Shown one piece after another: positions 11,317 to 33,857 of a stretch of DNA of 37,057 nt (positions within the stretch are counted from its first letter, which is position 1; each line of letters starts with the position of its first letter). The stretch comes from Erysipelotrichaceae bacterium. GTDB lineage: Bacteria > Bacillota_I > Bacilli_A > Erysipelotrichales > Erysipelotrichaceae. The notes below the pieces were generated by a model. The model was given only the letters and a program-made list of their open reading frames with translations, searched no databases and was not told where the DNA came from. The stretch spans positions 1 through 37,057 of the forward strand of contig JALENJ010000030.1 in assembly GCA_022767445.1 (NCBI GenBank), read 5' to 3'. The position numbers and the translations under genes were made by a program.

Positions 11317-12321
11317 TTAACTCCCGTATTTTAAAATGAATTGTTCAAATCCATTTTTAGGTTCTATTCTACCTGATTTAATACCTTGTTCTAAATCCGC
11401 AAGTTCTTTTAAATATAACAATAGGGTTTTAGAAGATAGATGATAACAACTCTCCAATCCCTTTTTTATCGTCCACTCTTCTGCGTGTAAGCGTGTCATA
11501 ATTTCTCTATTGGATAAACCCAAATCATAGAGTTTCTTTATGTTGTAGAGTGAACGTAAACGACTTGCCAACATACTAATCATTGCGATGTATTCATAAT
11601 GTGCTTGTAACATCTCATCTTTCGCTAATAGTGTATTCGCTAGATCTTTTGCGACAAAAGCATTACTCATACGATAGATATTTAAATCCGCATTGATTGG
11701 CACAATGTGTACGATATCTTGATATGTAAGTTCTTTCTTTCCATATAAGTCCATCTTCACAAGTGCATTATGAAGCTTTAGAGTATCATTGGCGGTACGT
11801 TCAAGCAATTCATTTTTAGCATCCATCTTTAATCGAAAGCCTGAATCCTTGAGCTTTGTATCTACGTACTTTTCAAATTCCCACGGTTTCATCTGTTCAA
11901 ATTTGACAACTCTTGCATCATATGTTGATAGTAACTTATATTCTTTCTTGCGAGTATCTGCAGAAAAGTTATGACAGTAAAATATTAGTATCGTATTTAG
12001 ATTTGGATCTTTGAGATAACTTTCAAGTAGCGATAGTCGTTGTTGTTTGATCGCTTCTTGCTTAGAAGATTCCTTTCCTCCTGTTTTTGATGAAGCTTTT
12101 AAGAAATAAGGTTCTTTGAGAATTACTGCTTTCTTAGCACCCTCATCAAAAAGAGATAATGTATCACATGCCATCAAAGCTTCATCAAAGCGAAATGTCT
12201 TAGCATTAGAGGCATCAAAAATACTTACATCATCTTTTTTAATCGAATATTCTTTCAGAAGAGATTGTAATCTCTCCTCTTGTCGATACATATCTTTTCC
12301 ACTAAATAAATATACTGTCAT
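11317..12321 (-). CDS. holA: DNA polymerase III subunit delta
   Basis: This 334-aa clamp-loader delta subunit opens the beta sliding clamp. The opening MTVYLFSGKDMYRQEERL is the family's typical degenerate P-loop-region start, followed by VSIFDAS and the AAA+-like fold. The region around MISMLASRLRSLYNIKKLYDLGLSNREI, with an FEQFILKYG ending, is the conserved C-terminal collar domain. Length matches HolA (about 330-345 aa). It lies directly after comEC (3-bp gap), the usual comEA-comEC-holA order of Bacillota. Its start has only a weak upstream ribosome site (GGAT), so coupling to comEC is likely. Confidence 0.92.
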   Translation of the reverse strand: MTVYLFSGKDMYRQEERLQSLLKEYSIKKDDVSIFDASNAKTFRFDEALMACDTLSLFDEGAKKAVILKEPYFLKASSKTGGKESSKQEAIKQQRLSLLESYLKDPNLNTILIFYCHNFSADTRKKEYKLLSTYDARVVKFEQMKPWEFEKYVDTKLKDSGFRLKMDAKNELLERTANDTLKLHNALVKMDLYGKKELTYQDIVHIVPINADLNIYRMSNAFVAKDLANTLLAKDEMLQAHYEYIAMISMLASRLRSLYNIKKLYDLGLSNREIMTRLHAEEWTIKKGLESCYHLSSKTLLLYLKELADLEQGIKSGRIEPKNGFEQFILKYGS

Positions 12322-12324
12322 ACG

Positions 12325-14163
12325 CTAATCCATTATAACAAGTTTCCCTGTTGATGTTAGAATAAAATGCTTACGAAAAATACAAAAGAAACGCATATCA
12401 CCAACATCAGCAGTATCCAACCACAGTATGTGCCGTTGTTGCATAAACTGTATTACCTGACGGCTTGGCATATGACTACTTTCATAGAGGTCATTATTAG
12501 AGATACATACTTTAGGCTGCACAAAATCAATTAATCTTTCTGGATTCATCTTTGATGAACCATGATTCGACAACAACATGATGTCGATATCAAGATCTTG
12601 ATATCGATTGATCAAGTATGTAATATCACTTTCATCTAAGTATGTTAACAAGAGAAAATTCATCCCTTCAAATGTAAACATCCAAATTGGATGTTTACTG
12701 TTTTGTAAGTTTAATTGATACACAGGTATTTTACTTTGAATTTTCTCTTGTTGAGATTGAGAAACAATCTCAATCTGATTAAATTCTGTTTCGTTGATAT
12801 CACCCAATACCATCACCTTCGATATCGATAAAGCATGCAGGTAACTTTCAATATCACGTATATTCGGATTTTGATCACATTGTACTAACACTGCATCCTT
12901 AGACAATCCATTCGTTAACAATAAACTAGTACCCTTACTCTTAAGTAATGTGACAGTGGAGAATGGATGAAAACAGAATCCTAATACACATAAAAATATG
13001 AAGATATATTTTTGATATTTACAATTTCTACAAATCAGATATATCAAAAATATAGAAAATAATGAGATACTACCAAAGATTGTAAATTGACGAAGAAATA
13101 TCATCGGTTTAGAAATTAGTTGAATCACAGCTAATGTAGAGACACCTGTATATAACCAAAAGATCGCTAACAACCATGTAATACCCATAAAATAGCGAAA
13201 TACACCATACATGCATAACGATAAGATTTGTATGAACTGATATTCTCTACTACATACAATCGCAATTAAACTAAACATTGCAAGATTTTGTGATTTCTTA
13301 GGGAAAATACATTTTAGCCGATACAGAAACGGGATTTGAAAAGATAATGAATATACGGCTTCTGGTCGAATCAAAAGTAGTATGATACTAGCTATCATTA
13401 TCCGTAATCGAAATGATAAATGAAAAAAAGATAATACAGTATTGATACATGCATACAATAAGATGATCGGATAATGATAGAGATAACTAAAAAACAACAA
13501 TAATACAAACTGTAATATATGACGTTTGTTTTCCGTTAAATAGTATTTTATTAGATACATCAATACCCATATTGCTGAAATATAGGAAAAACCTGATTGT
13601 TCATAGATATCTGTTATATCGATTGTCTTATTATGGATATTGAGTAATATCTGCTGGATAATCTCATGAGAAATTGTATCTTCAATCTGGTTTATCTTTT
13701 GTTGTAATAGGTAACGCAGTGTCCGATTTATGTGTACGACTTTAATCTCTGATTGATATGTATATCCACTAAAGTGATTTTGTTTTGCCCATGTTGATTG
13801 CGAAAATCCAAAGAACTTTGATTCTTCGATGAATGGATGTGGTGTACTCTTTATTTCAACATTTGCATCCAATAATAAAGGTTCACTACAATACACAACA
13901 ATTCTATCTTTGTTATTTTCAACAATTGCATAGGAGGATTTTACATCGACAACTCTGTAGGTATCTTGATAGACAAATGGTATCCCGTGCGTATACGTCA
14001 ACAACAAAATCACAAAAATGGTAAGACTACTTTTTAGCGAATGATGTTGATACCAATATAGACAACAAATGCATATACACAATGGACGTATATATCCTTC
14101 CATATGCATGCATAACAAAAACATAAACAAGACAAGTAAAGGATTTTTTATGATAGCTTTCAT
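12325..14163 (-). CDS. comEC: ComEC/Rec2-family DNA uptake channel, short, with degenerate C-terminal domain
   Basis: ComEC passes single-stranded DNA across the membrane during transformation. This 612-aa protein has N-terminal TM segments, a soluble beta-rich insert with FFGFSQSTWAKQNHFSGY, a central multi-pass competence domain (about 190-420), and a C-terminal soluble part. It is shorter than the usual 730-780 aa. The C-terminal region keeps LLSNHGSS and VCISN, which correspond to the tail of the metallo-beta-lactamase-like fold, but the DVGQGD and HxDxDH metal motifs are absent (GDINETE stands at the expected place). It overlaps comEA by 4 bp (ATGA) and precedes holA. Identity is firm from architecture and context; activity is uncertain. 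Confidence 0.88.
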   Translation of the reverse strand: MKAIIKNPLLVLFMFLLCMHMEGYIRPLCICICCLYWYQHHSLKSSLTIFVILLLTYTHGIPFVYQDTYRVVDVKSSYAIVENNKDRIVVYCSEPLLLDANVEIKSTPHPFIEESKFFGFSQSTWAKQNHFSGYTYQSEIKVVHINRTLRYLLQQKINQIEDTISHEIIQQILLNIHNKTIDITDIYEQSGFSYISAIWVLMYLIKYYLTENKRHILQFVLLLFFSYLYHYPIILLYACINTVLSFFHLSFRLRIMIASIILLLIRPEAVYSLSFQIPFLYRLKCIFPKKSQNLAMFSLIAIVCSREYQFIQILSLCMYGVFRYFMGITWLLAIFWLYTGVSTLAVIQLISKPMIFLRQFTIFGSISLFSIFLIYLICRNCKYQKYIFIFLCVLGFCFHPFSTVTLLKSKGTSLLLTNGLSKDAVLVQCDQNPNIRDIESYLHALSISKVMVLGDINETEFNQIEIVSQSQQEKIQSKIPVYQLNLQNSKHPIWMFTFEGMNFLLLTYLDESDITYLINRYQDLDIDIMLLSNHGSSKMNPERLIDFVQPKVCISNNDLYESSHMPSRQVIQFMQQRHILWLDTADVGDMRFFCIFRKHFILTSTGKLVIMD

Positions 14164-14639
14164 AGACAGATATCATCTTTAATCTTTTCGAATTTAGACT
14201 TTCCTATCCCTTTTACTTTCATAATATCTTCGATGTTTTGAAAAAGTCCGTGCTCTTTGCGATAGTCTACGATAGCCTGTGCAATCTTCTTTCCGATTCC
14301 TTGTATCTGCATCAACCCTTCTACATCAGCTGTATTGATTGAGATTGTATTAGATATCGTATTTGAAGTATCGATACTAGGAATCGTGAGTATATCTTTA
14401 TCCTTAAGAATCGTTGCTAGATTGATTCTTGAGATATCCGCGTTTTCAGTTAATCCGACTTCGTGTAGTAAATCATCGATTGTTGCGTATGGCTTGATAT
14501 ATACAAGTCCTTGTTTCTTGACTTCGCCATGAACTGTAATCTGAATCTGATCTCTTAGATATCCATTGAGCTGTATCGTCTCAAATTTACCGGATGATAG
14601 TATGAGTAAACAAATAAAAACAGTAAGTAGTAATCGCAT
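14160..14639 (-). CDS. comEA: ComEA-type competence DNA receptor
   Basis: ComEA is a membrane-anchored DNA-binding protein that hands double-stranded DNA to ComEC. From the ATG at 14639 the protein has 159 aa: a signal-anchor MRLLLTVFICLLILSS, an SLBB-like domain (TVHGEVKKQGLVYIKP, LLHEVGL), a Ser/Thr/Asn-rich linker, and two helix-hairpin-helix motifs (INTADVEGLMQIQGIGKKIA and IEDIMKVKGIGKSKFEKIK). A GTG at 14651 is also in frame, but its codons form the GGAGG ribosome site for the ATG, so the ATG is preferred. Overlaps comEC by 4 bp and follows greA by 42 bp with no terminator. Confidence 0.93.
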   Translation of the reverse strand: MRLLLTVFICLLILSSGKFETIQLNGYLRDQIQITVHGEVKKQGLVYIKPYATIDDLLHEVGLTENADISRINLATILKDKDILTIPSIDTSNTISNTISINTADVEGLMQIQGIGKKIAQAIVDYRKEHGLFQNIEDIMKVKGIGKSKFEKIKDDICL

Positions 14640-14681
14640 AATTGCCTCCACTTACTGTATTTGTATTTATCTTGAATATCC

Positions 14682-15158
14682 CTATTTAATCTTAACGATT
14701 TCAACTGTGTATGGATTAGCTACCTTCACATCACATACATCGCCAACTTTATGGTCTAAGATTGCTTGTGCTAGTGGTGTTTCGTTTGATAGACGTCCAT
14801 TCAATGGATCAGATTCTGTTGAACCAACGATTGTATAAGTAACTTCTTCCTTTGTATCGTTGAACAATAGTGTAACGCTTGATCCGATATGAACAGCAGA
14901 CTTTTTGCCACCCTTCTTTGTATCGATGAGTTCATAGTTTCTTAGCATGTACTCTAATTGTGTAATACGTGCTTCAACTTTTGCTTGTTCATCTCTAGCC
15001 GCATCGTAGTCAGCATTTTCAGAAAGGTCACCCTGTGCACGTGCTTCCGCAAGTTCTTGTTTTACTTCTTCACGAACAACATGGACTAAATTGTTGTATT
15101 CATCTTGTAGTTTCTTTAAACCTTCTTCAGTAAGGTATGTTTTATTTTCTTCAGCCAT
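14682..15158 (-). CDS. greA: Transcription elongation factor GreA
   Basis: This 158-aa protein rescues backtracked RNA polymerase by stimulating transcript cleavage. The N-terminal antiparallel coiled coil (YLTEEGLKKLQDEY through about residue 75) bears the acidic tip GDLSENADYDAA with D44 and E47, which reach the polymerase active site. The C-terminal FKBP-like domain has VTYTIVGSTESDP, LSNETPLAQAI and VANPYTVEIVKI. Length is standard. It follows udk by 24 bp, part of the udk-greA pairing common in Bacillota. Confidence 0.97.
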   Translation of the reverse strand: MAEENKTYLTEEGLKKLQDEYNNLVHVVREEVKQELAEARAQGDLSENADYDAARDEQAKVEARITQLEYMLRNYELIDTKKGGKKSAVHIGSSVTLLFNDTKEEVTYTIVGSTESDPLNGRLSNETPLAQAILDHKVGDVCDVKVANPYTVEIVKIK

Positions 15159-32978: not shown

Positions 32979-33857
32979 TTAATCTAACGGTTTTTGATAA
33001 TAGTTACCGATGACTCTTTCAACAGCAGTAAGTGAAATAAATGCATGACTGTCCGTCTTGCGGATAATTTCAATTACCTCATTTAACTGATAGTTGTTGA
33101 TGGTTATCTGCAACATTGTATGTGGTTGATGCTTATAAGCTCCCTCTACAGGGAATCTTGTAATACCATGTCTGCATGTCTTAAATACAGCTTCACAAAC
33201 CTCATCTGCATGATCCGTCGTAACTTGAAGACGTGTTACCTTATAACGTTGGTGCATTGTATTAACAACCTGTGTAGATACATACTGGAAGATAATGGAA
33301 TATAATGCCTTATCCCAACCAAATAATAAACCTGCAATCACAAGCACAATCGCATTGACACCAAGCATATAATTCCAAGTTGGACGTTTTAATCTTGCAG
33401 ATAAATCAATCGCAATAAAGTCCGTTCCACCACTACTCGCATTTGAACGCAGTGCTAGTCCAATCGCAAGACCATTTAACAATCCACCAAATACCGCTAT
33501 TAACAACATATCATTTGTAACGATTGGAACGTTGATAATAATCGTAAATAATGAACTCAATGAGAACCATAAGATAGAATATAATACAAACTTATGACCA
33601 ATTCTGCCCCATATAAATAAGACAACAGTAAAGTTCAGCAACCAGTAAATAACACCAAATGGAATATCAATGCCAATATATCGCGCAGCACTTAAGGAAA
33701 TCAAACGAGAAATACCCGCAAATCCACCCGGGAATAAGTTTCCTGATTTAACGAAAGATTCCATGCCAAACGCATAGATGAGTGCAGAAAGCGCAATCAC
33801 AAGAAGATACTGAATATCCTTCTTGGTAAAAGTAATATTTAGTTTTTTGATAACCAT
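32979..33857 (-). CDS. YitT family membrane protein (DUF161 plus DUF2179)
   Basis: This 292-aa protein has 5-6 TM segments in the N-terminal two thirds, with GNLFPGGFAGISRL and the conserved LRSNASSGGTDFIA. A C-terminal cytoplasmic DUF2179 domain follows (YKVTRLQVTTDHADEVCEAVF, HGITRFPVEGAY, DSHAFISLTAVERVIG). Function of the family is unsettled. Two starts compete: ATG 33875 (six more residues, no ribosome site) and ATG 33857 (GGAG at 9 bp). A TGTTATGAT extended -10 at 33887-33895 would put the transcript start about 5 nt before the upstream ATG, which favours 33857. Confidence 0.9.
   Translation of the reverse strand: MVIKKLNITFTKKDIQYLLVIALSALIYAFGMESFVKSGNLFPGGFAGISRLISLSAARYIGIDIPFGVIYWLLNFTVVLFIWGRIGHKFVLYSILWFSLSSLFTIIINVPIVTNDMLLIAVFGGLLNGLAIGLALRSNASSGGTDFIAIDLSARLKRPTWNYMLGVNAIVLVIAGLLFGWDKALYSIIFQYVSTQVVNTMHQRYKVTRLQVTTDHADEVCEAVFKTCRHGITRFPVEGAYKHQPHTMLQITINNYQLNEVIEIIRKTDSHAFISLTAVERVIGNYYQKPLD

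Follow-up and report, generated by a model that had tools for sequence, protein, structure and literature searches.

The comEC locus and its assignment

The window, i.e., the whole stretch of DNA that was analysed, comprises 37,057 nucleotides (contig JALENJ010000030.1 of the Erysipelotrichaceae bacterium assembly GCA_022767445.1) and contains a block of genes in the order udk-greA-comEA-comEC-holA, where udk and greA are named from their sequences rather than from a family search. The comEC frame (positions 12325–14163, reverse strand) encodes 612 amino acids without an internal stop. The frame shares 4 bases with comEA (14160–14651, reverse strand), and 3 bases separate its end from the downstream neighbour holA (11317–12321, reverse strand; TIGR01128, 201 bits); holA and the upstream neighbour greA (14682–15158, reverse strand) were used for synteny and for the tree. 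The comEA gene is intact and revealed an SLBB-like part and a helix-hairpin-helix (PF12836, E 1.1e-22; TIGR00426, E 4.5e-23). Based on an AlphaFold2 model, the comEC product was divided into N-terminal helices with a small beta domain in an OB-like position (residues 1–180; 13624–14163, reverse strand) and a helical channel ('competence') region (residues 181–398; 12970–13623, reverse strand), followed by an MBL-like domain without metal motifs (residues 399–612; 12328–12969, reverse strand), which matched a ComEC-MBL profile and aligned with structure 9ic4.

Comparison with TIGR00361 showed homology (E 2.3e-9, 35.9 bits) below the curated cut-off of 190, and comEA lies directly upstream of the gene. 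PF03772 (Competence) did not match the product, nor did any other Pfam family over its cut-off. While PF03772 exceeded its cut-off in 10 of 14 control genomes, it did so in none of the 145 genomes of the family (five with a sub-threshold match), including those in which the MBL domain is canonical, so that the low profile score reflects divergence. With the window ComEC as query, a relative was found in 98 of these 145 genomes (family and genus are used here for the kinship groups as defined by the search tool), and the relatives read from this search had kept the full MBL domain except in genomes G125 and G031. Judged by homology and gene order, the window protein is thus a divergent ComEC ortholog, though not a member by profile score. 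It resembles the canonical ComEC of B. subtilis and Moorella (OB, competence, MBL) in its place after comEA, in its domain order and in the predicted MBL fold, but differs in the absence of metal motifs and of a detectable PF03772 domain, and also in length from the B. subtilis protein, for which a passage of PMC5031224 gives 776 amino acids.

Loss of the metal motifs in the C-terminal domain

The ComEC proteins of the relatives carry the motifs N/DVGQGD (motif I), DTG, T/SHxDxDH, the motif-IV GD, HHGS, and HPS, with single departures. None of them is whole in the window ComEC: the alignment revealed K-SKGT at the position of motif I, LVQCD at that of LIDTG, a gap at that of HxDxDH, and TY at that of the motif-IV GD, the motif-IV Asp being absent. 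HHGS is altered to NHGS (residues 533–536; 12556–12567, reverse strand) and YHHPS to SHMPS, and NHGS and the PS of SHMPS are the nearest approach to the motifs of the relatives. The window ComEC has therefore lost its metal motifs, among them the HxDxDH and motif-IV Asp ligands of an active ComEC MBL nuclease, and the alignment bears out an earlier sequence-only reading, which had described a tail without DVGQGD and HxDxDH that keeps NHGS. That reading had also considered ligands conserved in a rearranged order; since H-x-[DH]-x-[DH]-H is absent throughout the whole window ComEC, the motif is not merely displaced or relocated elsewhere in the protein. A sequencing error or frameshift as the cause was rejected on the basis of the full open reading frame and the same losses in a second species (G125). 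Fifty-four C-terminal columns are conserved in 53 intact genus members, and the window ComEC keeps 22 and that of G125 23 of them (intact members keep at least 89% of the same columns in a leave-one-out control). Genus-conserved columns of the N-terminal part are all kept by the window protein (4 of 4), as are five of nine in the channel.

Despite these losses, the C-terminal domain is predicted to have the ComEC MBL fold. The AlphaFold2 model, built from 53 aligned rows, had a mean pLDDT of 85.5 and a pTM of 0.82, with values above 80 in most ten-residue blocks of residues 1–180. Structure prediction of the tail, which the sequence-only reading had suggested, placed model residues 399–605 with the nuclease domain of Moorella glycerini ComEC (9ic4; Z 20.1, rmsd 3.0, 205 residues), followed by pneumococcal phosphorylcholine esterase (Z 15.5) and other MBL proteins (about 11); the C-terminal range of the protein was the only one tested well by this fold search, which listed no channel-domain match. 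In sequence comparison alone, the domain matched the profile of intact ComEC MBL domains with 91.9 bits. Residues 454–480 (12724–12804, reverse strand), which correspond to the alignment gap at the site of HxDxDH in the orthologs, are a stretch of low confidence, and the HxDxDH region is the least confident of the model (pLDDT below 50 at 461–463 and 465–476). Because intact orthologs were included in the model's alignment and favour their own fold, the model supports retention of the MBL fold without being independent proof of it. For the G031 protein, the corresponding model had a pLDDT of 65 and fell below 50 over much of the C-terminus, too poor for a reading of that part.

Distribution among relatives

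HxDxDH was identified in the last 240 amino acids of 95 out of 99 related ORFs read. The four ORFs without it belong to the window genome (G000) and to three others of the same genus, namely G125, G031, and G075, the last being Bulleidia extructa W1219, whose record contains the 9-kb stretch of G075; the motif loss is a lineage trait. While the ComEC of G125 is 44.5% identical to that of the window and shows the same motif losses, those of G031 and G075 are shorter (567 and 557 amino acids as ORFs), have lost NHGS too, and keep one of nine conserved channel columns and none or one of four N-terminal ones. The family genomes with a ComEC match, 98 in number, were read in part, and the 99 ORFs include 36 from other genera (8 found beside holA, two from PF03772-survey loci); L003, which repeats the gene of L072, was set aside, as were L095, L098, L100, L101, L103, and L105–L108, which are fragments or duplicates. 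Within the genus, a readable ComEC C-terminus was available for 63 of 70 genomes. The other seven comprise G165, G171, G178, G182, G193, and G196, with no ComEC match, and G148, with an N-terminal match only; five of them are less than 80% complete. Beside holA, the gene at L139 and L145 is not comEC, and the L137 contig ends inside holA.

A careful tree of HolA and GreA preferred two changes, and none of 200 bootstrap trees joined all four motif-free genomes; a single clade of the four was not rejected by the AU test (p 0.145). Fragments L088, L092, and L094 and also L033 (no HolA or GreA match) were omitted from this tree, and eight further rows were removed before its calculation. The tree thus favours two losses of the ComEC metal motifs over one. 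In another genome, G102, comEC (L072:773–2986) is broken by an apparent IS200/IS605-type element, the ORFs of which are, named from sequence, transposase-like (134 amino acids) and TnpB-like (400 amino acids).

Other competence genes and selection

Each of the four motif-free genomes harbors comEA, comGA, a comG operon in which pilin-like ORFs occur, comFA paired with comFC, and dprA, the last over the Pfam cut-off in all four. This rules out a lack of other competence genes, which the sequence-only reading had named as an outcome that would speak against it, and agrees with its view that an intact comEA overlapping comEC argues against simple decay. In G000, the ORF for ComGC comprises 98 amino acids (L128:7304–7600), and ComGA and ComGB matched best to the ComGA and ComGB models, but below the cut-offs; ComGC exceeded its curated cut-off in both genomes tested (G125 and G031). 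No ComFA model was matched, and comFA was assigned by its position directly before comFC and by helicase similarity; ComFC itself stays below its cut-off. G125 carries ORFs named transposase-like from their sequence, one beside the comG region (L129:1959–3383) and one downstream of the EndA-type gene described below (L177:2243–3391), and B. extructa G075 (L131) has an apparent Tad-type pilus locus, also named from sequence, around a second PF00437 ATPase.

In all four motif-free genomes, comEC is an open frame. Comparison of G031 and G075 gave a dN of 0.28 and a dS of 1.22 for comEC, and a dN/dS of 0.22 (bootstrap 0.11–0.38) for its C-terminal part, so that selection in this pair is purifying and even the altered domain is constrained. 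Between G000 and G125, ComEC showed the lowest identity of ten genes compared, with 50% in the N-terminal part, 37% in the channel, and 48% in the C-terminal part; as dS is saturated for this pair, identities only are given in place of a measure of selection. For comGA and comFA, dN/dS was 0.05–0.06 and 0.07–0.15, respectively, at a high dS that is near saturation in G000/G125.

A candidate replacement nuclease

A gene for a putative EndA-type nuclease was identified elsewhere in the window genome (L189:2446–3267; G000:C10, around 33269–33658). Its 273-amino-acid ORF matched PF13930 with 71.8 bits (cut-off 27) and the related PF01223 with 18.8 bits, below the cut-off of 23. The search of PDB sequences gave streptococcal nucleases as relatives (5fgw, E 4.8e-10), and with them 3owv, a DNA-entry nuclease (E 5.2e-6). 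At the catalytic motif, G000, G125, and G031 have NRCH and G075 has HRCH, and N-terminal hydrophobic segments over the threshold, one in three of the genomes and two in G125, predict a membrane anchor; the catalytic His of D/N-R-x-H and an N-terminal anchor are features of EndA. In the genus, 36 of 70 genomes had a PF13930 match over the cut-off, including all four without ComEC metal motifs. In G000 and G125, the gene sits behind what we take to be luxS and mtn, whereas in G031 and G075 it is adjoined by presumed mtn and purine nucleoside phosphorylase genes. Since relatives with an intact MBL domain also carry it beside mtn (e.g., G190, G208, G146, G194, G183, and G184), the EndA-type gene is likely older than the motif loss in ComEC. 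Its link with this loss is statistically weak: it was found in four of four motif-free and 29 of 59 intact genus genomes (Fisher p 0.069, kinship ignored), and a pairs test on the tree had too few independent pairs and no power.

The sequence-only reading had reasoned that such a lineage must use another enzyme or an altered uptake, which the EndA-type candidate supports if it does this work, and had pointed to a separate MBL nuclease. No stand-alone ComEC-type MBL protein was detected in the four motif-free genomes (ComEC-MBL profile, E ≤ 0.001), where the profile picked up the residual ComEC domain alone in G000 and G125 and gave no match at all in G031 and G075. NucA/NucB was rejected as a replacement as well, with no match in any of the 70 genus genomes. 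Matches to PF01223 were weak in G031 and G075, as in G000, and lacking in G125; G187 gave a single strong one. Many relatives with an intact ComEC carry an extra stand-alone ComEC-like MBL protein, mostly of about 270–370 amino acids (e.g., G177:C16:6592–6924 and G102:C181:51225–51560).

Interpretation and comparison with known systems

A C-terminal MBL fold occurs in many, not all, ComEC proteins, according to a passage of PMC6299819, and in Moorella thermoacetica the domain is a Mn2+ nuclease (section of Silale et al., PMC8579336). For S. pneumoniae, passages of Baker et al. (PMC5031224) state that, of the seven ligand positions, ComEC retains just two, and that the organism relies on EndA; the combination of an MBL domain with lost ligands and EndA is also described in parts of PMC12455585 and PMC8579336. 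In this organism, EndA degrades the non-transforming strand, and the ComEC MBL domain is regarded as inactive. EndA is required for transformation and recruited by ComEA, as stated in part of PMC3764208, and its DRGH motif and H160 are mentioned in passages of PMC6384898 and PMC3764208. Silale et al. doubt in the same section that the pneumococcal substitutions must abolish activity, so that this precedent is not settled, and raise the possibility that a domain without activity is retained to guide the DNA (PMC8579336).

On balance, we lean towards a working ComEC whose MBL-like domain no longer cuts. DNA would still be taken up with the comG pseudopilus, ComEA, the ComEC channel, and ComFA. 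Degradation of the non-transforming strand, outside the membrane, would fall to the EndA-type nuclease, whose gene lies elsewhere in the genome, and the MBL-like domain would persist at the mouth of the channel to guide the DNA without catalysis, following the suggestion of Silale et al. (excerpt of PMC8579336). As intact relatives carry the EndA-type gene too, this nuclease was probably already present before the loss and may have made that of ComEC dispensable, and we propose that ComEC nuclease activity was lost because the EndA-type enzyme could replace it. More tentatively, and with less confidence than even, it may be that the ComEC nuclease was inactivated two or more times in this genus, with selection each time maintaining or reshaping the domain as a non-catalytic guide and cutting passing to the pre-existing EndA-type nuclease.

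It is unlikely that the lineage is instead losing transformation by slow decay, with ComEC a relic whose nuclease was the first to go. The low ComEC identity between G000 and G125 and the majority of conserved channel columns missing in G031 and G075 would fit such a decay, but four open comEC frames, a comEC dN/dS of about 0.2 in G031/G075 with the C-terminus included, the low comGA and comFA ratios, for all their high dS, and the retained comG operons and comF pairs speak against it. That the cut is made by an unrecognised nuclease, or by a metal site newly formed in the C-terminal domain, we consider improbable: H. pylori, without MBL domain and EndA in the relevant passage of PMC5031224, indicates that third solutions exist, and seven His and fifteen Asp are left in the window's C-terminus, yet no HxDxDH-like motif is among them, and neither NucA/NucB, searched across the genus, nor a stand-alone ComEC-type MBL, searched in the four motif-free genomes, was found. 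Quite improbable, too, is that no nuclease is needed because ComFA pulls one strand through ComEC while the other is displaced rather than degraded. All four motif-free genomes do carry a comFA-like helicase gene, and Silale et al. explain in this manner the transformation that persists in a ligand mutant of B. subtilis (section of PMC8579336); all four, however, also have a nuclease of the right class, and ligand mutants of Legionella lose transformation entirely in the 2025 study that reports the 9IC4 structure (excerpt of PMC12455585).

The arrangement, a probably non-catalytic ComEC MBL-like domain that perhaps works beside an EndA-type nuclease, resembles the known pneumococcal one, in a genus where the ancestral form persists as well. 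Alike are the ComEC MBL-like domain with lost ligands and the EndA-type nuclease with a membrane anchor, here a predicted one (passages of PMC5031224, PMC12455585, and PMC3764208). In contrast to S. pneumoniae, where motif II is substituted, it is absent here, NHGS is also lost in G031 and G075, and the setting is that of the Erysipelotrichaceae, with a very divergent ComEC, a candidate nuclease role, and intact relatives within the genus. H. pylori likewise has a ComEC without MBL nuclease and is transformable, as parts of PMC5031224 and PMC12455585 state, but it lacks the whole domain and, in the passage of PMC5031224, an EndA homologue. Lactobacillus johnsonii has an EndA orthologue and an intact domain together (same passage). 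Among the matches listed from the open-licence literature, neither a paper on this case (searched as Solobacterium, Bulleidia, or Erysipelotrichaceae with ComEC, and as ComEC with EndA or domain loss) nor a report on transformation of the motif-free species was found.

Silale et al. ask, in the section cited (PMC8579336), why a possibly inactive pneumococcal domain is retained and what becomes of strand removal in ComEC proteins that lack the domain. As the genus holds intact, motif-free, and further eroded ComEC domains, with the EndA-type gene detected in some members only, both questions become testable among close relatives. If repeated switch-off and takeover by EndA were true, pneumococcal-type uptake would be a recurrent evolutionary outcome. 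The survey also bears on the published distribution of ComEC: Pimentel and Zhang record ComEC-type proteins as lost in Erysipelotrichaceae (excerpt of PMC6299819), which may be explained by relatives that are present there but stay below the Pfam cut-off, and the core genes of Erysipelothrix rhusiopathiae include ComEC according to a passage of PMC4906694.
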